Below, piece after piece: positions 3,597-55,951 of a stretch of 64,000 bases of DNA. Position 1 is the first letter of the stretch, and each line of letters starts with the position of its first letter. The position numbers and the translations under genes are program-made. The notes under the pieces were generated by a model. The model was not told where the DNA came from and did no database searches. It was given only the letters and a program-made list of their open reading frames with translations. Origin of the DNA: Heliocidaris erythrogramma (taxonomy: Eukaryota > Echinodermata > Echinoidea > Camarodonta > Echinometridae); assembly GCA_025617745.1 (NCBI GenBank), contig CM046858.1, forward strand, positions 50,227,925-50,291,924. The letters are read 5' to 3'.

Positions 3597-3739
3597 AATA
3601 GTCACAAGTGCGGTGGGTGGTCTACCGCAAAGCGTCGATGCTATGTCGCTGGATCCTGAGATTTACTCCTGCTAAACTCGCTGCAAGAATTGTTTGGAAA
3701 CTCGCTTCTATCTCGTGACTGTCTGCGTTCAGACAGCGT

Positions 3740-5060
3740 TTGGTCTCGACACCCAGTACCCAGTATCTCTAAAATCCTAGAAAAAATAATTTATAAACGA
3801 TTATATAATTTTATGACTATAAATAATTTATTGATCCCTAATCAATTTGGTTTTAGACCAGGACACTCTACTGATTATGCTGTTTTACACATGTGTGACA
3901 AAATTATAGAATCATTTGCAAAAAAGGAACATACTATAGGCATATTCATGGATTTATCGAAAGCATGTGACACAATTAATCATGGAATATTATTATATAA
4001 ACTAAATAATTATGGTGTAAGAGGACAAGCTTTATCTTGGTTCAAAGATTCTCTACATAACCGACAACAATATGTTAATTTACAATCTTATAATGCGCAA
4101 AGACAATATATAAAATGTGGCGTACCACAGGGATCAATATTGGGTCCATTATTATTTATTATTTATGTAAACTATATAATTAATTCTTCTTTATCATTGA
4201 ATTTCGTTATGTTTGCTGACGACACAAGTATACTTTATTCTCACCATGATTCAATGGTACTTATAAATAGGCCTAATTCTGAGTTAAAAACATATCTTTA
4301 TGGTTTAAATGTAATAAACTGGCTCTCAATATTAATACAACTAATTTGATTCAGTCTAGACAGGCAAACGCACAGAATGTAGATTGTAATATATTAATTG
4401 ATGGATTGCCTCTGGCAGAAAAACACTCTACAAATTTTTAGGAGTTACAATTGACTCAAATTTAACCCGGGCAGAACACACACGTAACATTCATACATCA
4501 ATATCCAGAAACATCGGAATTCTTTATAAACTACAACACTTAATAACTGAAAGGTCCCTAATGATATTATATAATTCCTTAATTCTATCTCACATAATGT
4601 ACTGCAACATTGTTTGGGGCAATTGCTGTGTAACTAAATTAAATTCTATATTACTACTTCAAAAAAAAAGCATTACGCATTGTAACTAATTCTACTTATT
4701 TTTCTCACACTGATCCTTTATTTAAGCGTCTAAAAACATTAAGGATACAGGATATACATGCTTTTCAAACAGGAATGTTTATGTACAAATTCACATTTAA
4801 GCAACTCCCTTCGTTATTTTGTAACATATTCAACTTGAATTCAAATATACATGCATATCCTACTCGTCACTCCATAGATTATCATTTAGAAAATCCCAGA
4901 ATTATTTTAGCACAAAAGTCAATCAGGCACCATGGTCCGGATGTCTGGAGCGCCCTACCACAATGGCTAAAGCAATGTTCCTCAATTTACTCTTTTAAAA
5001 CATCGATTAAAAATATTTATTATTTAAATATTAAAGTACACCTATCTAATCTAATCTAAC
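3740..5060 (+). pseudogene. 5'-truncated LINE, reverse transcriptase remnant
   Basis: From about 3745 to 4349 the frame encodes reverse transcriptase fingers and palm: KILEKIIYKRL, NQFGFRPGHST, the motif A region GIFMDLSKACDTINH (Asp present), GVPQGSILGPLLF and the catalytic FADDTS box. The thumb and C-terminal parts continue in other frames. One is around 4440-4660 (LGVTIDSNL..., MYCNIVWGN). The other is 4775-5059, with the YPTRHS...HHGPDVWSALP block usual near the end of CR1/jockey-like ORF2 proteins. Several frameshifts and the absent endonuclease make it dead. The 3' end is a (ATCTA)n tail at about 5042-5059, typical of LINE target-primed insertion. The exact clade is undecided. Confidence 0.8.
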
Positions 5061-5106
5061 TTAACAAAAATGCCACTGGAAAAAAGAACACAACAAGTTG
5101 AAAAAT

Positions 5107-5137
5107 GAAAGTCACAGATCACCCCTGGTGTTTGTGG
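5107..5137 (+). pseudogene. Left fragment of Tc1 transposase gene split by the foldback element
   Basis: The frame reads HRSPLVFV, matching the segment that precedes DGN-ITAQ in many Tc1 transposases. It stops exactly at GTTTGTGG (5130-5137), and the same eight bases resume the coding frame at 15755 (FVDGNITAQRYVEDILRP). Upstream of about 5107 no more transposase is recognisable, because the LINE tail lies there. Confidence 0.5.
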
Positions 5138-5147
5138 GGTTACGTCG

Positions 5148-5603
5148 TTTTTCCGAAGGTTCGTATTTCCGAAGGTTCGTTTTTCCGAAGGTTCATAATT
5201 CCGAAGGTTCGTTATTCCGAAGGTTCGTTACTCCGAAGGTTCGTTTTTCCGAAGGTTCGTTTTTCCGAAGGTTCGTTTTTCCGAAAATGAAATAGGGTTC
5301 ATAATTCCGAAGGTTCGTATTTCCGAAAATGAAATGAGGTTCATAATTCCGAAAATGAAATAAGGTTCGTATTTCCGAAAATGAAAAAGGGTTCGTATTT
5401 CCGAAAATGAAAAATGGTTCGTATTTCCGAAAATGAAAAAGGGTTCGTATTTCCGAAAATGAAATAGGGTTCGTATTTCCGAAAATGAAATAGGGTTCGT
5501 ATTTCCGAAAATGAAAAAGGGTTCGTATTTCCGAAAATGAAACAGGGTTCGTATTTCCGAAAATGAAAAAGGGTTCGTATTTCCAAAAAAGAAAAAGGGT
5601 TGT
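5148..5603 (+). repeat. Left terminal array of the foldback element
   Basis: The outer part (5148-5285) has about eight copies of a 16-bp unit TTCCGAAGGTTCGTAT with a variable last two to four bases. The inner part (5285-5603) has a 26-bp unit made by inserting a TGAAA-rich segment into the same core (TTCCGAAAATGAAA...GGTTCGTAT). The open frames across it on both strands are repeat artefacts, not genes. Confidence 0.9.
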
Positions 5604-5744
5604 AAATTCAGAGAATACGGCGTCAATCCGTATTTCGGATAGGGAGGAGGGGAAAGACGGCCAAGTGTAAAGATATTAATTCGTACTCAATAATCATAAC
5701 AATGATGATAACATCCAGAGAAATAGCCATTATTATCGTAATTC

Positions 5745-5850
5745 CTATCAATATTATCATTATTATTATTATTATTATTATGATTATTATTATTATTATC
5801 ATCATTATTGTTATTATTATTAATATTATTATCATTGTTCCTATTATAAT
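5745..5850. repeat. ATT microsatellite
   Basis: Imperfect (ATT)n tract. The isoleucine-rich frame on the minus strand is an artefact of it. Confidence 0.85.
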
Positions 5851-6517
5851 AACCAATATTTGTGAGCGAGCGTAGAGAGCGAGCGCCTCAGGAATACATG
5901 TTTCATTTCTCATAAAATGATATTGCTTCGGTGATTACAAATACATACTGATGTATTGAAGAAAGTGAATGATCGGATTCCGGATTAAATTTGCTACAAC
6001 GAAATTGGCTTGAAGTTATTTATATAATGTATATACCGCTTTGGAAAATGAGACACACCAAAGTTCCAAGTAGATCTTTACAAGCAGAACATGGCCACGT
6101 AAAGTTTTTGAAAGGGGGAGCTGATGCCTCTTGGCAGAATATCATACTCCCCTTTTCCACAATTTGCAAGCGAGCGAAGCGAGTTAGAAAAAAATAAAAC
6201 CCTTTTTTTATTGTAATGGAAATGCAATATTACTTAACCCTACTGCCGAATATGGAATATTTGGGCACTTCACTCGCCCTAATGAAGGGCGTTCCCTGTC
6301 CCAAACTATTCCGTTTCTAAATCTTACGCGCTAGTGAGCAAGTAAAAAAAGGAGATATTGTCTATAGAATAATGATTTTGTTACCAGATAATCCAAACAA
6401 TTATAACATTTTGAGTACCTTCCCGCCCACAGATAAGGATAGCCGACCATCTCGCTTCCCAAAATAAAAGGATGTTCGGGAACCACGCTGCTGGATTCCA
6501 GTGAGCTAAACATTGAC
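5851..6517. other. Foldback cargo without recognisable gene
   Basis: Non-coding sequence with recurring GCGAGCGNAGCGAG-like motifs (about 5863-5885 and 6168-6183). The same motif type appears at about 14330 and 56470-56770, which suggests another degenerate dispersed repeat. No coding frame is supported. Confidence 0.4.
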
Positions 6518-6536
6518 AATTTACTGCAATAAATCA

Positions 6537-6696
6537 TATATACCTACCTATTATGCCTGTAGTCTTGACTACGGGACCCCTTCGAGAATTATCACACATG
6601 TGTCACAATATTGTGCGCACCCCCCGTAATCCTATTGTCCCCTTTGCCACTCACGCGCGTCAATACGCTACGGCCATCTTCCTCTTTCTTGCTCGC
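6537..6696 (+). repeat. DIRS left inverted terminal repeat
   Basis: Begins TATATACCTACCTATTATGC. It is the near-exact reverse complement of 12531-12680 over about 150 bp. Confidence 0.9.
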
Positions 6697-7109
6697 CCCC
6701 GACGAGATAGGACGTATAGTCACAGCGCTCCTGAAATCAGGTCGTATAGTATCTTTTTGGTGCGCTTTTTCACATAGTTAAAGCACTTTTAGGTACCTAT
6801 ATTCGTTTAGATTATAGTACTTGGTGTTTTATTAGTCACTCTTGCCGATTGCAAGGGATTTTTTGATTCCCTTTCTTGGCATTTATTTTTCTCTTTCACG
6901 GTCAGCCCCACGTAGATATTTCCGTGTTTGCGGGTGTTTCCGTTTGTCACCGAGCCTTCGGGTTCGGCGTTTATTCTTACGGTTTTTAGGCTGTGAAAAT
7001 TTCTTTAGTGCGTATCTCCCAAATAATTTTACCCTTATTTACTGCATTCAGTTGAAGTATTTCTTATTTTGAAAAAAGTATACTTTATTGTCTGTTTTAT
7101 TGCAGTGGT

Positions 7110-9384
7110 ATGGATTCGGAAGAAGAAGCAGCTAGGTCAAGGAGACCTGCTTCTTCCGAAGAGTCGTCTAGCAAGACGACTCGGCCTTCCAGAACTCCCC
7201 CGAGTACTGCGGTACACGGGGGAGGGAGGAGGGCTAAGGGTAAGTTGCCTAGTGGTGTTTCCTTGCAGAGTTTGCCAGTCTCGGAGCTTGCGGCTTCGGG
7301 ACGGGTGGCGTTAACTGAATCGGGATTGTCAACTCCGAAGCCCGTGGTTTCGGGGTGGGTGGCGTCAGATTCTAGTGGTTTGGATATCTCGAATCCAATC
7401 CCCCGGTCGCTGAGACCAGAGGGGGGGGGGGGGGGGGGGGGGGCTGTTGTTTCCCGTACGGTAGCGTTCACTCGCTCTGATCCGTTAGGGGAGACGCGCC
7501 CCACTACTGCAGGGCAGCCCACGGGCTTAGTCCATGTTGGTCTGGGTTCTCAAACCCTAGCCCCCGGCAAACGCCATATGGGGGAACGAGTACTTCCTGG
7601 GCTGTCTACATTGCCAGCTAATTGGAATGCTCGAGCTAACAATTATGGACGCTCTTCGGAGCAACAGGTGTTTTCACCTGAGTGCGTGACTACTAGTGCT
7701 CCCCTATTGCTGCTTTCGAGCGGTCCAATAGCGGGTTCACACGCCTTTAGTAGTCATCGGGCACATACCGAGTCATCTCGGTCTGCCCACGCACTGGGAG
7801 CTTTTAGCTCCCAACCCAAGGCTACTGCATCTTCTTGCTTAGCCAATATGGGTGATTTGGGCGATTCTCTAGGCTTACGCCATGAGCGCTCCAATCCCTT
7901 TATGGGAAGTGAACGCCCCTCCGCGGAGGGATCGGTTTGTGTTTCCGAAGAGGCTTCGGGGACCCGAACGAATCCGATTAAGCGTTCTAAGAAAAGGGTT
8001 TCGGCTACGACTTTTGTCGAGCCAGCCAAGAAAAAGGCCAAGAAGAAGGCAAAAAGTGGCAAGGCTTTGCCGGCCTCTTGCCCGTCTGACCTGGCTAACC
8101 CAGCTAGCTCCTCTCAAGCTGACATGTTCAGTATGATGCGGGCTTTTGCTCAGAATCAGGGTTGGTCCTTTGTACCGGCTACTTCAACCCTGACTTCTGT
8201 CCCTATTCAGGGATCTCGCCTTGAGTCTAATCAGCCTTTTGTGATTGATTCCTCTTTGTCTGAGTCGGATTCGCATGTGCCTCCTATTCCCGCGGCCCTT
8301 GGGGCTCCGCCGGGCGAGGAGACTGTTGTTGAACCATGCGAGGCTCTGCCTGCGGAGGCCTTTGTTAGTGCTCCTTTGTCTCATTCCACTCGAGTGGAAC
8401 CAGATTCGGATGTGGCTTCTCAAGCTTCGGTTCCCGAATCGCTTGGACAGACGGAGTCTCAATCGCTTGCTCTTCGCGGGGTAGAAGCGATTGCTTTGTT
8501 GTCCAAATATCTCCCTGAATTTCAGTCAACCCGCGCGCAGGGTTCGACTTCGCGTTGGAAATTTAAGCAGCAGGATTCCTCTGAGGGTATCGCTCTTGAG
8601 GAGGTTTTCAAGCTGGAGTATGACCGCATTGAGGCCGCGCTGTTGATTAAGCGCTCTAATGCGGTCAAGGGTAAGGCCTTTGCCTTTTGTTCTCAGGACC
8701 AAGACAGCTTTTTTAAGGCTAAGACTCTGTCTCCTGAGATTTTGGAGGTTGGTCGTCGCTTACGGGCGACTAATCCGCTTACCTCCGCCGCTTTCAAGGC
8801 GGAGGATAAGATCTGGTCTAATATTGAAAGCCAGGTTAGGTCGGGGATGCGTTTGTCGGCGTTTCAAGGGTTTCTCTCCGACCTTAGGTCCAGGGCGGAG
8901 GAGTTGAATGTTACCGATGGTGACAAGCTGATTATTGACGACCTGTTGCATACTCTTTTTTTGTCTGCAGTGGTCGCAGCTTTCCACCGCAGCTGCTTCG
9001 GCTACGTTCCGTCGCAGGACCTCGGCTCTCTCGGCACTGGGTGTTAGAGAGTCGGGCATTGCTCAACTTCTCCGAGATGTTCCGTCTCGGGGTCCTTCGC
9101 TTTTTGGTGGTAAATTCGCTACGGTTTTTCAGAGAGAGATCGATGCGCGTAAGCAGATCTCGGATATGACTAAGCAGTTTCACACTAGCTCTAAGTCAAC
9201 GCGGGCCCCTGTTCAGCGTAGACCTGCTGGTCCCGTTTCAGGTCAACGCAGTCGCGTGTCTAGGGTCCCGCCTCCTGAGCCACAGCCAGCTCCTTCTCGT
9301 GGGAGAGGGAGTCGTGGCAGGGGCATTTCGAGAGGTACTCGTGGTAAGGCGATGGCTTCGCAGAAGGCCAAGCCTGGGTTTTGA
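7110..9384 (+). pseudogene. DIRS ORF1 (gag-like), one frameshift
   Basis: A long serine/proline-rich reading frame starts at ATG 7110 (MDSEEEAARSRRPASSEE). It has a lysine-rich basic patch (KKAKKKAKSGK) around residue 310 and a helical C-terminal part (ALEEVFKLEYDRIEAALL...). A long G run at about 7421-7442 makes a polyglycine stretch. The frame ends at 9047, but the gag-like sequence clearly continues in the next frame from about 8985 to 9384 (ALSALGVRESGIAQLLRDV, then an RGRGSRGRG tail). A single-base change near 8980 therefore splits it. DIRS ORF1 proteins are thought to be capsid-like; no zinc knuckle is visible, and the RG-rich tail may bind RNA. Confidence 0.75.
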
Positions 9385-11335
9385 TGTTTTTCCCCGAGCG
9401 CTTGTTCAACCGAATGTGGTAGGTGGCCGTCTTCACGCGTTTCTCCCCGCTTGGGAGGCCATCTCCGGGGACGCATTGGTTCTCTCCGTCGTGCGAGACG
9501 GATTCTTCATAGATCTTTGCGATTCGCTCCCCGGAGGGGCTATAAGAATTCGGTCACCTCCCATGTCTGCCCTGTCTCGATCTCATGCTTCAAAGGAGAT
9601 CGAGTCTCTTCTGGAAAAGAGGGCTATAGAAAGGGTAAGAGACAGGCCGTCTCTTTCCCTTTCTCCAATATTTGTTATTCCCAAGCGCTCGGGAAAACTT
9701 CGTTTGATACTGAACCTAAAAAGGATAAACAAATTTATTCCTCCGGTTCATTTTCGGATGGAGACTCTTGCCTCCATTCTTCCGTTGATAAAAAGGGAAG
9801 ACTACGCGGTCTCGATAGATCTCAAGGACGCGTACTTTCACATTCCCATTCATCGCGCATCTCGCGATCTTCTGGGGTTCTCCTTCCTCTCGGAGACTTA
9901 TCGTTTTCGGGCTCTTCCCTTCGGGCTGCGCCCGGCCCCTCGGGTTTTTACTCAAGTTGTAGCGGTGCTAGCGGCCTTTCTGAGGCGTCGCGGCCTGCGG
10001 TTGTTTTGTTACATGGACGATTGGCTTCTCCTTGCGGAGTCGCGCGATCGTTTGTTGGACGAGACTCGTTTGCTCGTCTCTCTTTCTCAAGACTTAGGTT
10101 TCCTAATAAATTGGGAAAAGTCAGAGTTAGTCCCCACTCGCAGCCCAGTTTTTCTGGGGGCGGTGTTAGACATAAGGAATCAGTTAGCTCGGCCCAGTCG
10201 AGACAGGATTCTCACCATTGTCTCTGCGGCTCGCAAGCTCTTGCTGGCCAGAAGAGTCTCGGCCAGACAGTGGCTTCAGTTTCTAGGTTATCTAGCCAGT
10301 CTAGTCGATGTTTTAGAGGACTGCCGGCTCCTCATGAGACCCTTTCAGAGACATCTCCTCAGGTTCTTCAAGCCGGGAAAAGACTCTCTTTTGGTCTGGA
10401 TTCCAGTACCAGTAAAGATCAAGTCTCTTCTCGCTTGTTGGACGAGCGAGGTGTTTCTCGCGCGAGGCAGGTCCTTCTCTGCCCCTCTTCCGTCGATATC
10501 GGTTTCGACGGACGCCTCTCGGTTGGGGTGGGGAGGACACTGCAACGGCAGCACGGTTGCGGGGGATTGGTCTCATCTTGGGACTCTTCCTCATATCAAT
10601 GTCCTGGAGTTTATGGCAGTTCTGTTGACCTTGCTCCATTTCAGAAGTCGACTTCTCAGTCGTTCGGTTCTGATTCTCACGGACAATGTTACTGTGGCGG
10701 CATATATCAATCGGCAGGGAGGCACTCGTTCGGTTGCCCTGAATGCCCTAGCAGCTCAGCTGTGGAGGTGGTGTCGTCGCATGGCAATCACACCCGTGGC
10801 CTCTTTCATCCCCGGTCGGGAAAACCTCATTGCGGATTTTCTGTCCCGGGGCAGGTATCTTCCATCGGAATGGATGCTCCATCCGGAGGTATTTTGCCGC
10901 ATTCGCAGTTGCCTAGGTCCACTGGAAGTGGATCTATTTGCGTCGGTGCTAAATCACCAGCTGCCGAAGTATTGCTCCCGTGTTCGCGATCAGGGAGCAT
11001 GGGCTCTCGATGCTTTCTCCCTCAGCTGGGAGAACCTTCAGGGATTCGCCTTTCCTCCCTTCCAACTGATTCCGCGGGTCTTGCGGAAAATCAGGGAAGA
11101 TCGGGCGAGGGTGCTTGTAATAGCTCCCTTTTGGCCCAGGAGGAATTGGTTTCCGGAACTTATGAGCCTTCTAGGGGCTCAACCGTTAGTTCTCCCGTTA
11201 AGAGCGGATCTGGTGTTACAGCCCCTATCGGGGATTCTTCACCACAATCCGGAGTCTCTTCATTTGACTGCTTGGCCCCTGTCAGGGAATCTGCAAGACA
11301 GTCGGGTCTCTCTGATAGAGCCGCGGACTTTGTAA
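9299..11335 (+). CDS. DIRS reverse transcriptase / RNase H
   Basis: The frame is open for 678 codons. The conserved region starts at about residue 40 (GGRLHAFLPAWEAI). Reverse transcriptase motifs follow in order: FVIPKRSGKLRLILNLKRIN, the motif A region VSIDLKDAYFHIPIH, ALPFGLRPAPRVFTQV and the catalytic YMDDWLL box. RNase H follows: STDASRLGWGG (first Asp), NVLEFMAVLL (Glu), LTDNVTVAAYINRQGG (Asp) and a late Asp in ENLIADFLSRG. After RNase H comes the VDLFASVLNHQLPKY...WALDAFSLSW block common in DIRS pol. The true start is uncertain: the first ATG at 9299 overlaps the end of ORF1, so translation may depend on overlap or re-initiation. All catalytic residues seem present. Confidence 0.9.
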   Translation: MGEGVVAGAFREVLVVRRWLRRRPSLGFDVFPRALVQPNVVGGRLHAFLPAWEAISGDALVLSVVRDGFFIDLCDSLPGGAIRIRSPPMSALSRSHASKEIESLLEKRAIERVRDRPSLSLSPIFVIPKRSGKLRLILNLKRINKFIPPVHFRMETLASILPLIKREDYAVSIDLKDAYFHIPIHRASRDLLGFSFLSETYRFRALPFGLRPAPRVFTQVVAVLAAFLRRRGLRLFCYMDDWLLLAESRDRLLDETRLLVSLSQDLGFLINWEKSELVPTRSPVFLGAVLDIRNQLARPSRDRILTIVSAARKLLLARRVSARQWLQFLGYLASLVDVLEDCRLLMRPFQRHLLRFFKPGKDSLLVWIPVPVKIKSLLACWTSEVFLARGRSFSAPLPSISVSTDASRLGWGGHCNGSTVAGDWSHLGTLPHINVLEFMAVLLTLLHFRSRLLSRSVLILTDNVTVAAYINRQGGTRSVALNALAAQLWRWCRRMAITPVASFIPGRENLIADFLSRGRYLPSEWMLHPEVFCRIRSCLGPLEVDLFASVLNHQLPKYCSRVRDQGAWALDAFSLSWENLQGFAFPPFQLIPRVLRKIREDRARVLVIAPFWPRRNWFPELMSLLGAQPLVLPLRADLVLQPLSGILHHNPESLHLTAWPLSGNLQDSRVSLIEPRTL

Positions 11336-12309
11336 TGTCCAGTCGTAGGGTTTCTACTAGGGAAATTTACAATTCCCGTCTCTCGGTCTTTTTCCTTTGG
11401 TGCAAAGAGAGAAATCAAACCCCTTCTAAGGCTCCTATTGGTTCAATTGCGGATTTCTTAATCTCGTTATTTGACAAAGGGAGATCTATTTCTACTATCC
11501 GAGGCTACCGTTCGGCGATCGGGGCCATTCATTCGGGTTTTTCGGATGGTTCGGGGATTTCCAATTCCCCGCTACTAAGCGGTTTGATTCGTTCGTTCTT
11601 TCTGAAACGACCTTCGTTTTCTAAGTTAGTACCGTCTTGGAGTCTGCCTAAAGTCCTGGAGGCCTTGGCGAAACCTCCTTTTGAACCGCTAGGTGAAGCT
11701 TCGCTTCATCATCTTACGGTTAAGACGCTCTTTTTGGTAGCTATTGCCTCTGGGCAGAGGCGCAGTACTCTTCATGCTCTCTGTCTTACTCCTGGTCATG
11801 TTCGCTGGGAGAGAAAAGGTGTTAGATTGATTCCTAGGGCTTCTTTTGTTGCCAAGAATCAGACAGCTACCTCCGGTCCTGTTGAGATTTTTCTTTGTCC
11901 GCTTTCTGACCTTTCTTCGGTGCGTGAGGACAAAGTTTGGTGTCCTGTTAGGGCTCTCAAATGGTATATTGATAAGACTAAGTCTTATCGTAAGGATGAT
12001 CAGTTGTTCCTGATCACTAGAGAGCCTTTTTCTCCTGCCTCTCTTGATTCCATTTCTAGATGGATCGTTGAAGCTATTAGGGCCGCTGGCACAGAGGCTC
12101 TTTTATCCGACAGTAAGCCTCGTGCTCATGATACTCGTAGTGTCAGCACTTCTTGGGCTGTGTTTCAAGGTGTGGCGCTTGTTGATATTTTGAAGGCTGC
12201 TTATTGGCGTTCGCCCAATTCCTTCATTTCTTGCTACCTTAGGGATATTCCCGCAGGTGAAGCTTTGTTTGCGTCAGCCACCTTGAAGGCCGCTGTGTCT
12301 TCTTTGTAG
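11254..12309 (+). CDS. DIRS tyrosine recombinase
   Basis: This is the tyrosine recombinase that would integrate a circular DNA intermediate in place of a DDE integrase. The conserved N-terminal domain begins near SSRRVSTREIYNSRLSVFFLW. Catalytic features are visible: the first Arg in SGQRRSTLHAL, the HxxR box in AHDTRSVSTSWAV, and Trp then Tyr in AAYWRSPNSFISCYLRD. The same frame is open back to 9451, overlapping the RT ORF by almost 1.9 kb, but that part is an out-of-frame shadow of RT. Overlap of RT and recombinase frames is normal for DIRS elements. No stop or frameshift interrupts it. Confidence 0.88.
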   Translation, partial: VSSFDCLAPVRESARQSGLSDRAADFVMSSRRVSTREIYNSRLSVFFLWCKERNQTPSKAPIGSIADFLISLFDKGRSISTIRGYRSAIGAIHSGFSDGSGISNSPLLSGLIRSFFLKRPSFSKLVPSWSLPKVLEALAKPPFEPLGEASLHHLTVKTLFLVAIASGQRRSTLHALCLTPGHVRWERKGVRLIPRASFVAKNQTATSGPVEIFLCPLSDLSSVREDKVWCPVRALKWYIDKTKSYRKDDQLFLITREPFSPASLDSISRWIVEAIRAAGTEALLSDSKPRAHDTRSVSTSWAVFQGVALVDILKAAYWRSPNSFISCYLRDIPAGEALFASATLKAAVSSL

Positions 12310-12378
12310 TCTTTGGTGTAATCCTATTTCCTTTGCTCGAAACATGCCTCCCGGTCTTTGAGTTGGCGCTGGTCTGGC

Positions 12379-12475
12379 ATAATAGGTAGGTATATATGAT
12401 TTATTGCAGTAAATTTGTAAAATCAGCACTGATTTTCTTATTTACTATATAAATCTATATACCTACCTATGACCC
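12379..12475. repeat. DIRS internal complementary region
   Basis: The left half (from GCATAATAGGTAGGTATATA through TTTATTGCAGTAAATT) is the reverse complement of the element's left end. The right half (GTAAAATCAGCACTGATTTT through ATATACCTACCTAT) is the reverse complement of the right end. The two are fused as in a circle junction. Confidence 0.88.
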
Positions 12476-12530
12476 TCCCTCCTTCCCCGCTCCTTGCAAG
12501 CAACATGTTTCTTCTTGGGGTTGCTCGCAA

Positions 12531-12680
12531 AAGAGGAAGATGGCCGTAGCGTATTGACGCGCGTGAGTGACAAAGGGGACAATAGGATTACGGGGGGTGC
12601 GCACAATATTGTGACACATGTGTGATAATTCTCGAAGGGGTCCCGTAGTCAAGACTACAGGCATAATAGGTAGGTATATA
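12531..12680 (-). repeat. DIRS right inverted terminal repeat
   Basis: Reverse complement of 6537-6696. Beyond it, 12681-12721 is the right-specific outer end, copied in the internal complementary region. Confidence 0.9.
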
Positions 12681-12721
12681 GATTTATATAGTAAATAAGA
12701 AAATCAGTGCTGATTTTACAA

Positions 12722-14396
12722 CTTTATTATCTTTAAGATGTAATTACTTCGTCAACATTCAACATAAATTGAGATTGAAAAAGTATACTATGAAAAATGT
12801 ATACTAAAAATAAGGTGGGGGCGTCCTGCATCCCTAGCCCTCAGAGCCATTATTACAGAGTTTGGCCAACTCGGCTCCATGTAGGTAGCAATATGGCGTT
12901 TGTTGCTTTGTTAGGCAAGCAATAAACAAATGAATATACGCCATGTTGTGCCCAAATAAAACGAGTTGACCAAAGTCTGTAATATGGCTCTGTAGATGGC
13001 TCTACAAGCCCTCCCCTCCGGTCCCCAAAACAACAGCAATAAAAACAACATAATATTACAGAGTTCATAAAGGAGTTACTGCTATGTTTAATAAATAGCC
13101 TGGCAAGTACCACAACATATTATAACAAGCATATTATTGATACGTATAGGCTATAGGCCAATTATACGATCATAACAAGGGAAATAAAAGAAGTAATAAA
13201 AGAAGTAACAGTAGAGTAACCGGTGCAATATCTAAGTTTGGTCGCATAACTCCATCCAAAATGACATCGTCATTCGTAATTCTGGGTAGTCCACTTCATA
13301 ACAACAATTGTAATAATAATAATAACAACAACAACAATAATATTATCAATAATAAAAATTTTAATGATAATAATATCAGTAATCATAATAATAATGATAA
13401 TACAGATAATACTACTGATAATAATGATAATAATGATACTCATAATAATAATACAAATAATACTAGTAATAATAATAATAAATAAATGAATAGACAAGCA
13501 AACCCGAAGAAAGATGGATCGTAACAAGTTAAGGAAGGAGTCTTATCATCAGGCTGATATGATTATCATAAAAGGAAACAAAAGTAAGACCAAACTATAA
13601 TGCAAAACTATCTTAATCCAAATAGGACTGGAGAGCCATTAGCACCCCCCCCCCACACCGCTGATAATTTTAAAGGGCTTGCCGCGCTACATTATGACTT
13701 TTTCTTTAGAGTGTAATGTATCTTTTGATACAAAATGTGTGTATATTCCCGGGTATGGTGTTACGTAACATTTGAAGGTCATAGAATTACATGTATGTCA
13801 ATGTAAAATGGTAGGTTCGTATTTATGAGTAAAACCATTAATCATTTGTACAGATTCTAATGAGTTGCTTCATTTTACTGCACAGTCTGCGTTTTTAACA
13901 GTTACAACCGCTGACCTGAAGTTTGAAATAACTTTTACAAGCATAATGAATTACAAAACACTAAAAGACATTGAGAGTAAAACAATCCTCATCGTAAAAA
14001 ATAGAAATAAGGAATTACACATGTAGAAGAAAACATTCTGACCTAAATTAATGGCTTTTATCAACCAGTGCCCCGCCTTATAAGGAGTTGAAGCGATTTA
14101 TTTGAAACAAGTGTGTACTTAACATAGGCATAGGCATAGGCGTACGAGAAGGGGGGCTGCAGCCAACCCCCCCCCCCCGGATTTTGAAAGTGCCGATATT
14201 CCGGCAACTCACACCTCATATTCAGGGAGTGAGGTGCCCGAATATCCTCCTATTTCAGTCATTATAAGCCGAAATATGTTATTTTTATGATTTTTCACAA
14301 CGGAAAGGCACAATTATTTTTGGTCGCTAGCTTCGCGCGCTCGTAAATTAAAAAAAAGGAAAGTTGCTATCATTTTTTTACAACAAAAAGGCCATA
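12722..14396. other. Foldback cargo without gene; ATA/AAT microsatellite
   Basis: Non-coding. An imperfect (AAT)n/(AAC)n tract at about 13310-13485 produces an asparagine-rich frame that I reject as a gene. C runs lie at about 13647 and 14167. The segment around 14150-14345 resembles 56540-56880 loosely (a C-rich run, then CCGATATT and GGGCAAC-like words), which suggests an old dispersed repeat. Confidence 0.5.
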
Positions 14397-14471
14397 GGTG
14401 CCGTACCAGGGATCAAACCCCCAACCTTCGCGTTTCCAGTCAAGCGCTGTAAACCGTTCGACTACGACACC
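14397..14471 (-). tRNA. tRNA-like sequence, probably a pseudogene
   Basis: On the minus strand a seven-base acceptor stem can form (GGTGTCG with CGGCACC, one G-T), followed by an A-box-like TAGTCGAACGG and a degenerate B-box GGTTTGATCCC. The anticodon stem pairs badly, so an anticodon (possibly GGA, Ser) is not reliable. It is most likely a tRNA-derived relic. Confidence 0.3.
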
Positions 14472-14930
14472 TCCACACAAGCACACACACAGTCTTGTAT
14501 TGCTTTATTTCCGAGGACAAGTATTGTTCCTCTATTGTTACTCGTCCTCGGACAGTCGACGGAATAAAGCACAAATTCATTGTTCGACGTTCGAGGACTA
14601 TTGTCCGGCTTCCGAGGACCGTTGTTGTCATGATTTTTTTTTGTTCTCTGTCCGAAAATGTCCTCGGACATACTGCTAAACACGCCCACACACAAACACA
14701 CACACACACATAAACACTTATTCGATTCTTCTAATCTCGTCCTCTTATTTTCGTCTCTTTTCTCTTCTCCTCTCCTCTTTTATAAACCTTCCCAGTTTTG
14801 TGTCTCCATTTCATTTTTTTATTCATTGCGGGGGTGGGGGAGGTGCTTTTCGTCGAAAAGAGATCCGTTTTTTGAAGATGGCAATTAAAACCATAATATC
14901 CTATCGTGACCCTAAATTTTCCCTTTAACA

Positions 14931-15174
14931 GTGGCGTAGCTAGAGTCTAGCCATTGTGGGAGCACTGGCACCATTGGAGGCACAAGTCTTTTGGAATAAT
15001 CTTAAAGCTAATCTAAGACGCCGCTGGTGGAAGAGGGTTGGGGTTGCCGGAAGGGGTCCAACCGTCTTCTTTCCTAATCCATTTTCTTTCTTTTTTCTTA
15101 TTTTTTCGCCATCCGATGAGGGAGGGGTGGGGGCGTGCCCTCCCCCAGTTGCTACACCTCTGCTCCTGATGAAT
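14931..15174. mobile_element. Short hAT-type MITE candidate
   Basis: Begins CAGTGGCGTAGCTAG and ends GCTACACCTCTG, an imperfect inverted pair of the CAGTGGCGTAGC type common at ends of hAT MITEs. It is non-coding and internally C/G-rich. No clean 8-bp duplication was seen, so the call is tentative. Confidence 0.4.
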
Positions 15175-15187
15175 TCGCCCTTTTTTA

Positions 15188-15745
15188 CCAGGAATTATGA
15201 ACCCTATTCATTTTTCGGAAATACGAACCCTATTTCATTTTCGGAAATACGAACTCTTTTTCATTTTCGGAAATACGAACCCTAGTTCATTTTCGGAAAT
15301 ACGAACCCTTTTTCATTTTCGGAAATACGAACCCTATTTCATTTTCGGAAATACGAATGTTTTACCTTCGTGTTATATTCTTTACAAACATTGTAATTAT
15401 GTCATTTTTGTATTATCTTTCTTACTTTGTACTTTATTGATATTCATTTATGATTGTCATGTATATTGTATTTCAATTTGTTGAAAAAAAAAAAAGTGGA
15501 AAAAATAAATTCAAATAAATAAAAAAAAAACCTTTTTCATTTTCGGAAATACGAACCTCATTTCATTTTCGGAAATACGAACCTTCGGAATTATGAACCT
15601 TCGGATAAACGAACTTTCGGAATAACGAACCTTCGGAATAATGCAACAAATGTTCGGAATTACGAACCCTTTTTCATTTTCGGAATTATGAACTCCCAGG
15701 CATGGGAAATTAGTGTTTCGGAAATACGAACCTTCGGAAAAACGA
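15188..15745 (-). repeat. Right terminal array of the foldback element
   Basis: The same 26-bp and 16-bp units as at 5148-5603, in inverted orientation, with the plain 16-bp units outermost. It is interrupted at 15357-15532 by a foreign insertion. Confidence 0.9.
15357..15532 (+). mobile_element. LINE-like 3' end inserted in the array
   Basis: T-rich non-coding sequence ending in A-rich stretches (AATAAATTCAAATAAATAAA then A10). It resembles in composition the 3' end at 16430-16660, and array units resume on both sides. Its coding part is absent. Confidence 0.4.
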
Positions 15746-15754
15746 GATGCCCCC

Positions 15755-16097
15755 GTTTGTGGATGGCAACATCACTGCACAGCGCTATGTGGAAGATATC
15801 CTGAGACCACACCTGGTGCCATTCCTGCAGAACAGCCGAGGACTGCGCATCTTTCAGCATGATAATGCCCGACCTCATGCTGCACGGCTAACCACTGCAT
15901 TCCTGAGGGGTGAGAACATTAACACCATGGAGTGGCCGGCGATGTCCCCTGACCTCAATCCCATTGAGCATCTGTGGGATGAGCTTGGGAGGCGCATTGC
16001 TGGCAGGGTCAGGACTCGTGCAAAACTGATCCAGACTTTGCAAGATGAATGGAACAGGATTCCACAAGATTTCATTCAAAGACTGGTGCGCGTATGA
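15755..16097 (+). pseudogene. Tc1/mariner transposase, C-terminal part
   Basis: The frame reads FVDGNITAQRYVEDILRP, then FQHDNARPHAARLT (second catalytic Asp) and SPDLNPIEHLWDELGRRI (third acidic residue in the DxE/D-type spacing), ending at a stop at 16095-16097. The helix-turn-helix domain and first Asp are missing: the gene is interrupted at its GTTTGTGG site by the foldback element, and further upstream by LINE sequence. It is not functional. Confidence 0.85.
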
Positions 16098-16429
16098 GTC
16101 GCAGATGCAATGCCTGTCTTTTTATTGTGGGTCAGTATTATAATAACAATTATTCAGGGTTCTCGTTAGATATTGATACATTCATTATGAAAAAAGGGGT
16201 TGAACTACTTCTTCAATACACACCCTACATGATAAAACAATAAAACGATCGATCAACCAAGATGCACACAGCTCTACACTTATGCACTCACGTGCACACA
16301 CTTTTACTTTTACTTTTACTTCCATACGCCCGAAACTGCTGATGTATTTTTTCTCTTTTTTTTCTCTTCTTTTCTTTTCCTTTTTGTTTAAGTATTAAAC
16401 CGTTACAATGTCCAAAAATCGTATAAAAT

Positions 16430-26629: not shown

Positions 26630-27889
26630 TTAAAATTTTCTCTCATCACTTTTATGTCGACTTAAACAAAAAACTTTAAACAATTTATTCTTTTTTCTAA
26701 TCAATCTCAACATTCTATTAGTGACCCACGGTTTCTTATTTTTTCTTCTCTTTTTTATTGATATCAAAGGAAAATGTTTATCGTATAATTTTAGGAAAAT
26801 ATTCATAAACAATGTATAAGCTATATCAGCATCCATACACAAAAATACGTCACTCCAATCAACATCACGCAGTTCAATAAAAAATCTATTGATCGTTAAG
26901 TCATTGATTTTCCTGCAAGTATACGTTTGATCTGAATCATTTTTATAGAAACCTTTCTTATAACAGAAAATTGGCATGTGATCAGTGATTGAAGAATATA
27001 ACACACCAGATGTAATATCGTTGCAGTCATTCGTCAATATATTGTCTATAATGGAAGCTGTGGATTTGGTTATACGGGTTGGTAAATTAATTTGAATGTA
27101 AAAACCGTGTGATGCAATAATATTCATAAGATTAGTAATCCTGTTTGAATTCATTTTTAATAGATCGATATTATAGTCTCCAAGAATATATATTTGTTTA
27201 TTTTCTTTACAAAGTTCCTGCAACAATTTATCAAAATACGTCATATATTGATCCAAATTGGATTTCGGGGGTCTGTAAATTACTCCAATCACTATACTCT
27301 TTACTCGAGGAATATTAATTTCAACAAATATAGTTTCGCAGGAAGAGCAGGTGGGATTCAAGTCATTCCGCAATCGATAATGTAAGTTTTCATCTAAGAA
27401 TATTCCCACGCCTCCTCCCTTACCCTCTTTCCTATTAGTATTCATAAAATTATATCCATTCAGCGTGTGGAGATTTTCGTTTCCTGGATTTAACCAAGTC
27501 TCCGTTATACCAATAGCCGTGAAATTATGGGAGAGGCTGCTTAGGTAGGCAGAAATTTGATCAAAATTTCTAGCCATACTCCTCGAGTTAAAGTGTATAG
27601 CACTAAACTGTACTAAATTAGAATCTATTGACTCTTTAAATTCTTCTTCTAAATAATACTTGCAAGCATTAATATCTTGTTCATCTAAGTCAGAATCAAG
27701 AATTGAAATTGAATCATTTAATCTTATTTCTTCACTTAGGTCATTCAAATCATCGTAAGTGATATGCATTTTATTTACTTGCTCAACAAAAACACAGTTA
27801 AGGAATTCTTCATTATTGACAGAATAGAATGGAAGGACGGAACACAAATTCACAGACATGCAAACTAAAATAAGAATGAAATAAACCAA
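26630..27889 (-). pseudogene. LINE ORF2 APE-type endonuclease domain
   Basis: 419 codons from ATG 27889. A hydrophobic N-terminus (MVYFILILVCMSVNLC) and acidic linker precede the endonuclease: HFNSRSMARNFDQI, AIGITETWLNPGNE (catalytic Glu), GGGVGIFL, VIGVIYRPP, YILGDYNIDLL (Asp/Asn pair), SIIDNILTN and SSITDHMPIF (final Asp-His). This would nick target DNA for target-primed reverse transcription. The frame ends about 60 bp before the RT frame resumes, so at least one frameshift separates them. Confidence 0.8.
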
Positions 27890-28146
27890 CTATAATCAGT
27901 CTACGAAAAAGACCGATGGATAACTATGAAGAGATTAAAAACAAAAACAAAAACAAAAACAAATAAAATTGTTAAAAAAGAAAAAAAAGACCAGACAAGA
28001 ATTATCAAAATGAAATTATGAAAATGCATCAGTGATATGACTGAGTCATGGTGTTATTTTTTTATATAGTGTCACAATCATTTTTGTTTTCATTATCCAT
28101 ATTATTTGTGTCCATTGTCCATTTTTTTCGTCAGTTTCTCAATTGT

Positions 28147-28491
28147 TCATTCATTCTCCTTCTTTATAACCTCTTCAATTCTTCTTTGCTTCGTATAACT
28201 CGTTTGATGGTGTTCCCTCCGGTTGCAGGCAGTAACACGACGTGGCGTACCCTGTGGTACGCCACAGGATACCTCTAGTAGGGGAGAGTAGTAATTACAT
28301 ACTTTGGTGCTCTGAGTACGTGCAGTTAGGAAGCTGCAAATAATTAGGATGATCGATCTGCGTACACCTAACAGGATGAGTTTCTTGACTACAACTGAAT
28401 GATTTACTCTATAAAACGCCTTAGTAAAGTCAATGGTAGTAAGATAGGCATAATGGCCAGATTTTCCCAAATCAATAAATAACCATCTCAT
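28147..28491 (-). pseudogene. Foreign RT fragment in LINE 5' unit (copy 1; also 29590-29934, 31032-31376)
   Basis: The frame reads LTTIDFTKAFYRVNHSVVVK (motif A with Asp), LLGVRRSIILIICSFL, then SCGVPQGT, after which similarity to reverse transcriptase stops and a basic tail follows. It belongs to a different LINE family from the one it precedes and lacks the catalytic box. It is kept open in all three tandem units. Confidence 0.7.
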
Positions 28492-28531
28492 ATGTCAATC
28501 ATCGAGCATTAAAAATGTGCCCCTCTTGCAG

Positions 28532-28626
28532 AGGCGTCGGGCTCGGACAATGCATGGGGGATCTTTTCTCCGACAGACGAAAGATGCCCCCCTAATGAGG
28601 TATCCGAGCCCGACGTTCCGACGCCT
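28532..28626. repeat. Long hairpin in each tandem unit
   Basis: CGTCGGGCTCGGA (28535-28547) pairs perfectly with TCCGAGCCCGACG (28603-28615), with further outer pairing (AGGCGTCGG with CCGACGCCT) and an inner stem GGGGGATCTTT/AAAGATGCCCCC. It is repeated near 29973 and 31414. A shorter perfect hairpin GTGGCGTACC-CTGT-GGTACGCCAC lies at 28242-28265 (again at 29685 and 31127). Confidence 0.7.
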
Positions 28627-28797
28627 ATGCCCTCTTGTGATGGAAAATGTCCCCATACTGTGGTGGGATTTGCCGTAAGCTGATATTTTCCCTGCCTTCT
28701 GTGCCCTTCATCAATACTTTACCGTTTGATGCCAATAGAAGGCGCCCATTACTTTAACTTTTCAATCGAAAATATTACCTTGCTTTCTGCCCTGTTG

Positions 28798-29322
28798 CTA
28801 TTCTGAACAATGCAAAAAATAAAAAATCATTATGATTACAGGTAATATTTCAGTGCAAAAAGTAAGCCCTTTCTTTAACCCCACCATCAACAAAAAGTCG
28901 ACCATCGTTTCGTTTCCTGGATTTAACCAAGTCTCCGTTATACCAATAGCCGTGAAATTATGGGAGAGGCTGCTTAGGTAGGCAGAAATTTGATCAAAAT
29001 TTCTAGCCATACTCCTCGAGTTAAAGTGTATAGCACTAAACTGTACTAAATTAGAATCTATTGACTCTTTAAATTCTTCTTCTAAATAATACTTGCAAGC
29101 ATTAATATCTTGTTCATCTAAGTCAGAATCAAGAATTGAAATTGAATCATTTAATCTTATTTCTTCACTTAGGTCATTCAAATCATCGTAAGTGATATGC
29201 ATTTTATTTACTTGCTCAACAAAAACACAGTTAAGGAATTCTTCATTATTGACAGAATAGAATGGAAGGACGGAACACAAATTCACAGACATGCAAACTA
29301 AAATAAGAATGAAATAAACCAA
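28798..29322 (-). pseudogene. Truncated LINE ORF2 start, tandem unit 2 (again at 30240-30764)
   Basis: Same first 137 codons as 27889-27479 (MVYFILILVC to LNPGNE), then a junction-derived tail (TMVDFLLMVGLKKGLTF...) to a stop. The two copies encode identical proteins. They cannot make a full endonuclease. Confidence 0.8.
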
Positions 29323-31929
29323 CTATAATCAGAGTCTACGAAAAAGACCGATGGATAACTATGAAGAGATTAAAAACAAAAACAAAAACAAAAACAAAAA
29401 CAAATAAAATTGTTAAAAAAGAAAAAAAAAAGACCAGACAAGAATTATCAAAATGAAATTATGAAAATGCATCAGTGATATGACTGAGTCTTTGTGTTAT
29501 TTTTTTATATAGTGTCACAATCATTTTTTTTTTCATTATCCATATTATTTGTGTCCATTGTCCATTTTTTTCATCAGTTTCTCAATTGTTCATTCATTCT
29601 CCTTCTTTATAACCTCTTTAATTCTTCTTTGCTTCGTATAACTCGTTTGATGGTGTTCCCTCCGGTTGCAGGCAGTAACACGACGTGGCGTACCCTGTGG
29701 TACGCCACAGGATACCTCTAGTAGGGGAGAGTAGTAATTACATACTTTGGTGCTCTGAGTACGTGCAGTTAGGAAGCTGCAAATAATTAGGATGATCGAT
29801 CTGCGTACACCTAACAGGATGAGTTTCTTGACTACAACTGAATGATTTACTCTATAAAACGCCTTAGTAAAGTCAATGGTAGTAAGATAGGCATAATGGC
29901 CAGATTTTCCCAAATCAATAAATAACCATCTCATATGTCAATCATCGAGCATTAAAAATGTGCCCCTCTTGCAGAGGCGTCGGGCTCGGACAATGCATGG
30001 GGGATCTTTTCTCCGACAGACGAAAGATGCCCCCTAATGAGGTATCCGAGCCCGACGTTCCGACGCCTATGCCCTCTTGTGATGGAAAATGTCCCCATAC
30101 TGTGGTGGGATTTGCCGTAAGCTGATATTTTCCCTGCCTTCTGTGCCCTTCATCAATACTTTACCGTTTGATGCCAATAGAAGGCGCCCATTACTTTAAC
30201 TTTTCAATCGAAAATATTACCTTGCTTTCTGCCCTGTTGCTATTCTGAACAATGCAAAAAATAAAAAATCATTATGATTACAGGTAATATTTCAGTGCAA
30301 AAAGTAAGCCCTTTCTTTAACCCCACCATCAACAAAAAGTCGACCATCGTTTCGTTTCCTGGATTTAACCAAGTCTCCGTTATACCAATAGCCGTGAAAT
30401 TATGGGAGAGGCTGCTTAGGTAGGCAGAAATTTGATCAAAATTTCTAGCCATACTCCTCGAGTTAAAGTGTATAGCACTAAACTGTACTAAATTAGAATC
30501 TATTGACTCTTTAAATTCTTCTTCTAAATAATACTTGCAAGCATTAATATCTTGTTCATCTAAGTCAGAATCAAGAATTGAAATTGAATCATTTAATCTT
30601 ATTTCTTCACTTAGGTCATTCAAATCATCGTAAGTGATATGCATTTTATTTACTTGCTCAACAAAAACACAGTTAAGGAATTCTTCATTATTGACAGAAT
30701 AGAATGGAAGGACGGAACACAAATTCACAGACATGCAAACTAAAATAAGAATGAAATAAACCAACTATAATCAGTCTACGAAAAAGACCGATGGATAACT
30801 ATGAAGAGATTAAAAACAACAAAAACAAAAACAAAAACAAATAAAATTGTAAAATAAAAAAGAAAAAAAAAAAGACCAGACAAGAATTATCAAAATGAAA
30901 TTATGAAAATGCATCAGTGATATGACTGAGTCTTTGTGTTATTTTTTTATATAGTGTCACAATCATTTTTTTTTTCATTATCCATTTTATTTGTGTCCAT
31001 TGTCCATTTTTTTCATCAGTTTCTCAATTGTTCATTCATTCTCCTTCTTTATAACCTCTTCAATTCTTCTTTGCTTCGTATAACTCGTTTGATGGTGTTC
31101 CCTCCGGTTGCAGGCAGTAACACGACGTGGCGTACCCTGTGGTACGCCACAGGATACCTCTAGTAGGGGAGAGTAGTAATTACATACTTTGGTGCTCTGA
31201 GTACGTGCAGTTAGGAAGCTGCAAATAATTAGGATGATCGATCTGCGTACACCTAACAGGATGAGTTTCTTGACTACAACTGAATGATTTACTCTATAAA
31301 ACGCCTTAGTAAAGTCAATGGTAGTAAGATAGGCATAATGGCCAGATTTTCCCAAATCAATAAATAACCATCTCATATGTCAATCATCGAGCATTAAAAA
31401 TGTGCCCCTCTTGCAGAGGCGTCGGGCTCGGACAATGCATGGGGGATCTTTTCTCCGACAGACGAAAGATGCCCCCCTAATGAGGTATCCGAGCCCGACG
31501 TTCCGACGCCTATGCCCTCTTGTGATGGAAAATGTCCCCATACTGTGGTGGGATTTGCCGTAAGCTGATATTTTCCCTGCCTTCTGTGCCCTTCATCAAT
31601 ACTTTACCGTTTGATGCCAATAGAAGGCGCCCATTACTTTAACTTTTCAATCGAAAATATTACCTTGCTTTCTGCCCTGTTGCTATTCTGAACAATGCAA
31701 AAAATAAAAAATCATTATGATTACAGGTAATATTTCAGTGCAAAAAGTAAGCCCTTTCTTTAACCCCACCATCAACAAAAAGTCGACCATCTTTTGTTTT
31801 ATGAGGGAATCATCCTTTCCCTCACTAACACAAAAAGCAAATGGAAGCAATATTCTCTTTAGAAATTAAAAGTTTATGATTCCATCCGGTCATGTACGTC
31901 TGTGATCCCAGCGTTCTCGCGGTTTCACC

Positions 31930-33294: not shown

Positions 33295-34162
33295 CAAAAA
33301 TTAATAACAAGAAACACAATTTTGCGATTTGTCGTGGCTTTATTGAATAATTTGCAGTGGACGCTTAGCAAGTCAAAAATCCGTATTCTGATGTCACAAA
33401 CAATTATAACATATAACTGAATTATAAAATTCCAACTGGAATACTAATAAATATATGCTGATTACAGATCCCAGCCTCCCCGCATATGAAATCGGGTGAA
33501 GCAAAATAATAGACCTTATAATTATACCAACCTCCCCGCATATGAAATCGGGTGAAGCCAAATTAGCTTATACCAACCTCCCCGCATATGAAATCGGGTG
33601 AAGCCAACTTAGGCTTATACCAACCTCCCCGCATGTTAAATCGGGTGAAGCAAAATAATAAACCTTATAATTATACCAACCTCCCCGCATATGAAATCGG
33701 GTGAAGCCAAATTAGCTTATACCAACCTCCCCGCATATGAAATCGGGTGAAGCCAAATTAGCTTATACCAACCTCCCCGCATATGAAATCGAGTGAAGCA
33801 AAATGAACCTTATTACATACCAACATCCCCGCATCTGAAAATCGGGTGAAGCAAAATAATAAACCTTATATACAACCTCCCCGCATATGAAATCGAGTGA
33901 AGCAAAATTAACCTTATTACATACCAACATCCCCGCATGTGATCTCGGATGAGGCCAATAAAATGACAGTTTAAATGTGACATCTTACTTTACTGTACTT
34001 TACCTGCTTTGCTAAAATAAATTGCAGCCTCCCCGCATTTAAAAACGAGTGGGGCTGAAGTACAGTTTTACAATATTGTGACAGCTTATAATTGTAAATT
34101 GGTTTTGTAATTACATTAAATTTACAAATAATGACTTTTCATAACGTGACATGTTCGATATG
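33281..34162 (-). repeat. Ngaro B2 repeat with internal minisatellite
   Basis: Nearly identical to 34958-35839. The centre (33470-33960) has about ten tandem units of roughly 45 bp, each with CCTCCCCGCATATGAAATCG then GGTGAAGC, and one diverged unit (CCTCCCCGCATTTAAAAACG) at about 34027. CCCG and CGGG in each unit can pair into a small hairpin. Confidence 0.85.
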
Positions 34163-34965: not shown

Positions 34966-35839
34966 GACTGACAAAAATTAATAACAAGAAACACAATTTT
35001 GCGATTTGTCGTGGCTTTATTGAATAATTTGCAGTGGACGCTTAGCAAGTCAAAAATCCGTATTCTGATGTCACAAACAATTATAACATATAACTGAATT
35101 ATAAAATTCCAACTGGAATACTAATAAATATATGCTGATTACAGATCCCAGCCTCCCCGCATATGAAATCGGGTGAAGCAAAATAATAGACCTTATAATT
35201 ATACCAACCTCCCCGCATATGAAATCGGGTGAAGCCAAATTAGCTTATACCAACCTCCCCGCATATGAAATCGGGTGAAGCCAACTTAGGCTTATACCAA
35301 CCTCCCCGCATGTTAAATCGGGTGAAGCAAAATAATAAACCTTATAATTATACCAACCTCCCCGCATATGAAATCGGGTGAAGCCAAATTAGCTTATACC
35401 AACCTCCCCGCATATGAAATCGGGTGAAGCCAAATTAGCTTATACCAACCTCCCCGCATATGAAATCGAGTGAAGCAAAATGAACCTTATTACATACCAA
35501 CATCCCCGCATCTGAAAATCGGGTGAAGCAAAATAATAAACCTTATATACAACCTCCCCGCATATGAAATCGAGTGAAGCAAAATTAACCTTATTACATA
35601 CCAACATCCCCGCATGTGATCTCGGATGAGGCCAATAAAATGACAGTTTAAATGTGACATCTTACTTTACTGTACTTTACCTGCTTTGCTAAAATAAATT
35701 GCAGCCTCCCCGCATTTAAAAACGAGTGGGGCTGAAGTACAGTTTTACAATATTGTGACAGCTTATAATTGTAAATTGGTTTTGTAATTACATTAAATTT
35801 ACAAATAATGACTTTTCATAACGGGACATGCTCGATATG
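34958..35839 (-). repeat. Ngaro B1 repeat with internal minisatellite
   Basis: Second copy of 33281-34162, including the same order of minisatellite variants, so both copies were made from one template recently. Confidence 0.85.
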
Positions 35840-55520: not shown

Positions 55521-55586
55521 AATAAATTCGAGTAGGGGAAACTGACCAGAAATATATTATGAAGTGAAAAATGAGCAAAGAAAACG

Positions 55587-55659
55587 GGATTCCAGCGGGA
55601 CTTGAACCCGAGACCTCCGGATTGCTAGACCGGCGCTCTACCGACTGAGCTATGGAATA
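55587..55659 (-). tRNA. tRNA-Ala(AGC)-like gene, copy 1
   Basis: On the minus strand: acceptor stem TATTCCA/TGGAATC (one terminal mismatch), U8, A-box TAGCTCAGTCGG with D-stem GCTC/GAGC, anticodon arm CCGGT-CTAGCAA-TCCGG (four pairs and one T-T), anticodon AGC after U33, B-box GGTTCAAGTCC, then a TTTT terminator seven bases downstream. The mismatches leave it open whether it is charged and used or is a pseudogene. Confidence 0.55.
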
Positions 55660-55878
55660 CCCCAGTACGTGTTCGTCCCAGAAACCCCATAGTTTTCAAT
55701 GCTCGTGTGGTCAGAAGCTATAGAAACCAGACATAAACCCGAAGGATCGTAATCAACTTGGGGATAAATGCGTGGGATCACGGTTAGGTGATGCAGCTTT
55801 TTGTATATATTTAATAAATTCGAGTAGGGGAAACTGACCAGAAATATATAATGAAGTGAAAAATGAGCAAAGAAAACG

Positions 55879-55951
55879 GGATTCCAGCGGGACTTGAACC
55901 CGAGACCTCCGGATTGCTAGACCGGCGCTCTACCGACTGAGCTATGGAATA
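55879..55951 (-). tRNA. tRNA-Ala(AGC)-like gene, copy 2
   Basis: Identical over the tRNA body to the copy 292 bp upstream, with the same Pol III boxes and T-run terminator. Confidence 0.55.

Follow-up and report, generated by a model that had tools for sequence, protein, structure and literature searches.

A young family of foldback DNA transposons with long, repetitive inverted ends in the genome of the sea urchin Heliocidaris erythrogramma

A foldback element, its nested insertions and its target

We analysed a window of 64,000 nucleotides from the genome of the sea urchin Heliocidaris erythrogramma (G000; 1.064 Gb in 26 contigs; window at C6:50227925-50291924), which holds an element with the layout of a foldback transposon. 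The element occupies window positions 5138-15754 (10,617 bp) and is edged, as read directly, by the same eight bases, GTTTGTGG, at 5130-5137 and 15755-15762, that is, by a left and a right target site duplication without strand. Its left arm (5138-5640, plus strand; terminus GGTTACGTCG) holds, according to Tandem Repeats Finder, a 16-bp array at 5145-5285 (8.8 units) followed by a 26-bp array at 5312-5601 (11.2 units). Its right arm (15191-15754, minus strand; terminus, read inward, GGGGGCATCTCG) holds 26-bp arrays at 15191-15357 and 15529-15585, and then a 16-bp array at 15568-15641. The layout is thus mirrored, with the 16-bp arrays outside and the 26-bp arrays inside in both arms. The arms, which are mutually inverted, share a longest ungapped match of 167 bp at 93%, and the right one is further defined by a genome-wide end pattern. 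The two termini themselves differ, the left one starting GGTTAC and the right one, read inward, GGGGGCATC. Terminal inverted repeats that are long and consist of tandem units are a mark of foldback (FB-type) elements, and the outer 900 bp of each arm contain 15-34 seven-base core units in the 16 copies compared, including that of the window. An earlier note on this DNA had described the paired inverted 16- and 26-bp arrays with both outer edges at GTTTGTGG, and had taken the whole for a single foldback-type transposon with an 8-bp target duplication; the arrays are as it described them, and the ends, the duplications and the empty sites reported below uphold the single transposon.

The size of this copy is explained by insertions into it. 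Fifteen other complete copies from the same genome range from 4.2 to 6.2 kb, and 14 do not exceed 5.3 kb. One of the 15, L019 (4,548 bp), aligns collinearly with the element of the window, save for two insertions and some deletions. First, about 6.2 kb at approximately 6519-12720 (plus strand), with boundaries set by comparison with L019, are absent from all 15 other complete copies. This insertion has inverted terminal repeats at 6537-6687 and 12530-12680 (151 bp at 99%), a first open reading frame (ORF) at 7110-9047, a reverse transcriptase ORF at 9299-11335 (RVT_1, E 1.4e-21), and an ORF ending at 12309 which, on a motif found by reading, we take to encode a tyrosine recombinase (Pfam Phage_int_SAM_4 at E 0.12, below cut-off). 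With the reverse transcriptase and the inverted terminal repeats that mark DIRS elements, its sequence is that of a probable DIRS-like retrotransposon, the recombinase part being assigned by reading. Second, a short insertion with an A-rich tail lies inside the right arm at about 15358-15541 (plus strand); L019 lacks it and has an unbroken array there. What remains between the arms is a non-coding core, whose left part (5641-6518, plus strand) is common to both core types of the family and collinear with L019 and with another complete copy, L016, and whose remainder (12721-15190, plus strand), by alignment to L019, is of type A with an internal deletion.

The 10.6-kb length is therefore due to the later insertion of a 6.2-kb DIRS-like retrotransposon, and the 'unusually large, retrotransposon-bearing cargo' of the earlier note does not hold for the family: we reject the retrotransposon as family-level cargo, the other complete copies being collinear without it. 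A long foldback element with a retrotransposon inside may, then, be mere nesting. That the DIRS-like element might supply the mobilising recombinase, with the foldback element as its vehicle, draws on the ORF list for this copy, in which, from 120 aa upwards, the only long non-repeat ORFs inside it are those of the DIRS-like element; its absence from 15 of 15 other complete copies aligned, and the incompatibility of a tyrosine recombinase with the observed duplications, make this the least credible of the explanations we weighed. Tyrosine recombinases are not known to make 8-9-bp duplications.

The sequence into which the element inserted is derived from a Tc1 transposon. On the left, 53 bp (5085-5137, plus strand) match eleven other copies of the target (L050-L060) at 98-100%, and agreement with these copies begins only at 5085; the remnant of a LINE-type reverse transcriptase (3690-5064, plus strand; RVT_1, E 2.7e-28 for 3690-4349, the tail read directly) abuts this piece further left. 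On the right, a C-terminal transposase fragment (15755-16139, plus strand; DDE_3, E 3.2e-10) matches the same copies at 98.9-99.5%, the homology extending to 16119; beyond it, the sequence resembles, by reading, the end of a Tc1-type element. The right flank found 41 matches in the genome, including the window (279 first-look candidates, of which the best 40 were scored). Of twelve target loci fetched, one is the window's own; the other 11 of 11 are uninterrupted through ...CCTGGTGTTTGTGGATGGC..., with a single GTTTGTGG each and with 98.7-100% identity over 153 bp spanning the junction. In all eleven, SPLVFV adjoins DGNITAQ, so that the empty copy with one GTTTGTGG anticipated by the earlier note exists, and SPLVFV and FVDGN, whose separation in Tc1 copies the note had named as grounds for dropping its reading, are adjacent. 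The claim that a Tc1 transposase was split stands in part, namely, for the insertion into Tc1-related sequence, but not for an intact gene. By reading, the transposase in the aligned target copies is reduced to its C-terminal part, which lies between long inverted ends; therefore, the insertion most likely split a Tc1 remnant rather than a working transposase gene, as judged from these eleven relatives.

Copies, target site duplications and cores of the family

To count ends we used 24-bp sequences as found in other copies, allowing up to two mismatches and no change of length. In the whole genome the left-end pattern gave 2,088 matches (1023+1065) and the right-end pattern 1,149 (579+570), whereas the reversed patterns, used as controls, gave none. 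Left ends thus outnumber right ends at an equal mismatch limit, and length changes in the G run of the right end, which a mismatch-only pattern misses, may account for the surplus. The first 163 bases of the element matched at 98-100% in 40 of 40 scored matches (the window's own included; best 40 of 1,110 candidates, as in our DNA similarity searches generally), and because the scored left ends are this similar, the spread of the family is recent; fetched copies were chosen as best-scoring or exact matches, so that young copies are over-represented among them. All 20 of the other fetched copies start with GGTTACATGTCG. The earlier note had proposed a genome search for other paired inverted arrays, and in that search paired, inward-facing ends recur. 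Pairing and facing were judged on 100 exact-match places listed per end pattern: on contig C1, for 39 of the 67 listed left ends, a right end facing inward is listed no more than 25 kb away, at 1.2-5.8 kb in 36 of these 39 and further off in three. An exact 23-base arm pattern had no match in collections of viral and prokaryotic contigs, and our literature searches found no paper on echinoderm foldback elements and none on TU elements. Within the window, a second sequence related to the element, short and degenerate, lies at 63360-63670 (79% over 121 bp to the right-end region), adjoining an exon at 63003-63141 that by reading resembles SAMHD1.

Target site duplications were examined in 31 copies, namely, that of the window, 20 in fetched stretches and 10 represented by their paired ends; for three (L010, L021 and L023) the stretch fetched contains no right end, leaving 28 two-ended copies. 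A flanking duplication, likewise a mark of FB-type elements, is present in 26 of the 28, with 8 bp in 16 cases, 9 bp in eight, and 10 bp and 7 bp in one case each. Five of the 9-bp duplications are unambiguous by reading; in the other three and in the 10-bp case, a flanking C could belong to the terminal C run. The pairs picked from the exact-match lists have duplications in 10 of 10 cases, one with seven matching bases only. Because 26 of 28 two-ended copies carry matching flanking duplications, the two ends belong to one inserting unit, and the unlike duplications by which the earlier note would have recognised independent insertions are not what the two-ended copies show.

The 15 other complete copies are of two core types. 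Eight belong to type A, resemble L019 and measure 4.2-5.0 kb, with deletions in some of them; seven belong to type B, resemble L016 and measure 5.2-6.2 kb. Both types have common arms and about the first 1.8 kb in common, and their middles have no blastn match to each other; a variable middle between similar arms is, again, a mark of FB-type elements. For Pfam domains, one core per type (L016 and L019) was scanned, between the outer arms and up to a few hundred bases short of the right arm. Translated in six frames, the type B middle, the type A middle and the shared left core gave no domain above cut-off, with two sub-cut-off matches in one type A frame. The earlier note's statement that no transposase lies inside agrees with this, no DNA transposase having been found in the core parts scanned. 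The inserts of two long copies, L022 and L023, were considered as a place for a transposase, which is unsupported, no Pfam domain being found in six frames at E 0.01, and one further copy (L010) holds a 1,047-aa open frame that by reading resembles a LINE. With no Pfam domain above cut-off in the scanned core parts and two core types within the same arms, the family looks non-autonomous.

We conclude, with a probability of roughly 0.88, that the DNA at 5138-15754 represents a single copy of a foldback DNA transposon of non-autonomous, cut-and-paste type, which landed in a Tc1-derived remnant and was later hit by a DIRS-like retrotransposon. Several observations weigh against this conclusion. 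First, 28 of the 67 left ends on C1 have no right end among the exact-match ends listed. Second, L011 and L022 (two of the 28 two-ended copies) lack a flanking duplication. Third, the duplications have base leanings, with G at position 1 in 12 of 26, T at 2 in 14, A at 7 in 14 and C at 8 in 15, that is, G1 or C8 in 27 of 52 and T2 or A7 in 28 of 52, the significance of this bias being calculated under assumed fixed base frequencies of 0.18 and 0.32; such a GT....AC lean suits P or hAT elements. Fourth, no autonomous copy was found in searches for transposases that covered P, Mutator and Merlin, hAT not being searched for. Fifth, of 23 transposase matches on contigs C1 and C2 (7 of 26 P, 3 of 31 Mutator and 13 of 52 Merlin), none is faced within 25 kb by a listed exact-match end, a weak negative that comes from lists of 100 exact-match places each and counts equally against Merlin.

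The unpaired left ends, together with the 2,088 left against 1,149 right ends, could also be taken to favour two arrays that are independent insertions, or satellite arrays, by chance 10 kb apart. This is very improbable, and we reject it on the paired ends, the duplication that the two outer edges share in 26 of the 28 two-ended copies, the collinear cores, and the uninterrupted target copies.

Candidates for the mobilising transposase

The genome contains transposases of the Merlin, Mutator and P types, none of which is tied to the ends of the family. Of these, Merlin is our leading guess, at somewhat under an even chance; Mutator of Phantom type comes second, some other superfamily is an unlikely third, and P is less likely still.

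GG at both ends together with 8- or 9-bp duplications fit Merlin best and Mutator (Phantom) closely. The left terminus is GGTTAC in 16 of 16 complete copies, including that of the window, and the right one, read inward, is GGGGGC in 15 of 16 and GGGGC in L026, when an extra outer base in L014, L017, L018 and L028 is counted to the duplication. The GG termini do not fit hAT elements, which start YARNG. Merlin elements have terminal 5'-GG and duplications of 8 or 9 bp, and some of their families have imperfect terminal inverted repeats (TIRs) and internal tandem repeats (PMC8101967); their TIRs, at 24-462 bp, differ from the present arms, and the part of the description seen has no compound foldback arms. 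Domains of Merlin type (IS1595-type DDE) have 52 matches in the genome, several of them in open frames of 350-512 aa. As a tentative proposal, a Merlin transposase may mobilise the family, which would then represent a Merlin lineage that has evolved compound foldback arms with dozens of binding units.

A Mutator transposase of Phantom/Muta type, with the family as the local equivalent of Tm1 and Muta1, is an equally tentative alternative. Mutator elements make duplications of 8-11 bp (PMC6446971), a range into which those of the family also fall. Muta1 of Aedes aegypti, of the Phantom clade, is a type 2 foldback element that resembles the family in its 8- or 9-bp duplications, in a terminal motif followed by tandem repeats, and in its hundreds of derivatives (over 300) with common ends and mostly variable, unshared internal sequence; unlike the family, it has autonomous copies and is active in yeast, and its 12-bp repeats lie in a 145-bp TIR, compared with arms of about 0.5 kb with two unit types (PMC5225508). 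Tm1 of root-knot nematodes has asymmetric outer motifs, one containing GGTTA (CGGTTAA), followed by mostly 14-bp tandem repeats; it shares with the family variable numbers of tandem units, unequal arms and derivatives without coding potential, and differs in mostly 9-bp duplications, low copy number and a known Phantom transposase copy, none having been found for the present family (PMC3169594). The H. erythrogramma genome has 31 MULE matches, with FLYWCH about 2.5-6 kb upstream of MULE at five places (C2, C12, C13, C17 and C19) and listed beside MULE in a same-sized frame (290 aa) at one further place. The five places with FLYWCH upstream of MULE represent, by domain layout, a Phantom-type Mutator family. 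However, no MULE copy is tied to the ends of the family (3 of 31, those on C1 and C2, were checked by place), and one MULE match, like one P match on these contigs, has a nearby family end that faces away. In addition, four 18-base reads near one FLYWCH-MULE copy contain no arm units, one of them being equal, by reading, to a stretch of the DIRS end in the window, and the palindromic 10-bp terminal motif of Muta1 is not seen at the right end of the element.

A transposase of the P superfamily, with a Galileo-like family, appears unlikely. It would agree with the GT....AC bias of the duplications, and the genome holds 26 P-type matches, including eight copies with an 869-aa open frame; where they align, seven of the eight match the remaining one at 99.6-100%. 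The five clear 9-bp duplications speak against P elements, which make duplications of 7-8 bp, and Galileo has 7-bp duplications and termini unlike those of the present family. Galileo, a P element, resembles the family in its long inverted arms that contain tandem repeats (PMC3688188). Moreover, none of the seven P matches on C1 and C2 is faced by a listed end, the one on C1 that has a left end 5.8 kb away being the case in which this end faces away. When 6.2 kb of the C17 copy of the 869-aa family were compared with the element, the arms gave only short matches (E 0.095) without arm units, and the core only simple-repeat or weak matches; the 5' segment of the 869-aa family is common to a separate repeat set (best 40 of 86 candidates scored). 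The 869-aa element is thus unsupported as a partner, having no arm units in the 6.2 kb read and separate dispersed relatives.

The eight copies of the 869-aa P family (L061-L068) lie on C1, C3 (two), C7, C8, C9, C16 and C17, are nearly identical, have dispersed relatives, and carry upstream what reads as a THAP-like exon. Judged by the sequences of its copies, this family looks recently active; its ends were not located, and the segment C17 9187843-9188312 matched nowhere else.

Other repeats, related systems and mechanism

The window contains further repeats. At 60374-62220, a 290-bp unit occurs about three times, followed by about three more 290-bp units that are apparently inverted, the two sets meeting near 61272; the unit contains tRNA-like text, and no tRNA was called there. 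A 292-bp tandem repeat at 55521-56137 carries two tRNA-Ala(AGC) genes, both on the minus strand and spaced by 292 bp. A complex cluster of 46/103/149-bp repeats is present twice, at 33471-33942 and 35148-35619, 1,677 bp apart. Lastly, three copies of the beginning of a LINE-like ORF lie on the minus strand at 26630-30764, at spacings of 1,433 and 1,442 bp, which suggests local tandem duplication.

As a whole, the family is of a known kind. By layout, it resembles FB of Drosophila and TU of sea urchins, with their long inverted arms of tandem repeats, their variable middles, and most copies lacking a transposase of their own. FB, Muta and Tm1 likewise have the same arms around differing cores. 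Drosophila and sea urchin are both named among the hosts of foldback elements (PMC4079207).

In the mechanism that we infer, a DDE transposase produced from another genomic locus would act in trans and bind the repeated arms, whose many CCGAA-containing units may be reiterated, putative transposase-binding sites. In Galileo, arm repeats were shown to be transposase-binding sites by footprinting and binding tests (PMC3688188). The enzyme would cut at the GG termini and join the element to a target with an 8-bp, sometimes 9-bp, staggered cut. The present copy would have landed in the Tc1-derived remnant in this way, with the DIRS-like retrotransposon then entering its core, and unequal exchange within the arrays could give rise to the varying unit numbers of the arms (15-34 per arm).

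The element therefore belongs to a known kind, and its family is new, young, abundant and gene-less, with long, repetitive inverted ends. If mobilisation by Merlin were true, the foldback layout would have arisen independently once more, in addition to its origins in Mutator and P. The family has more than a thousand ends, as well as empty sites and exact duplications, and offers a clean whole-genome example of foldback elements, and the old question of what mobilises TU-like foldbacks is now directly testable in one genome.

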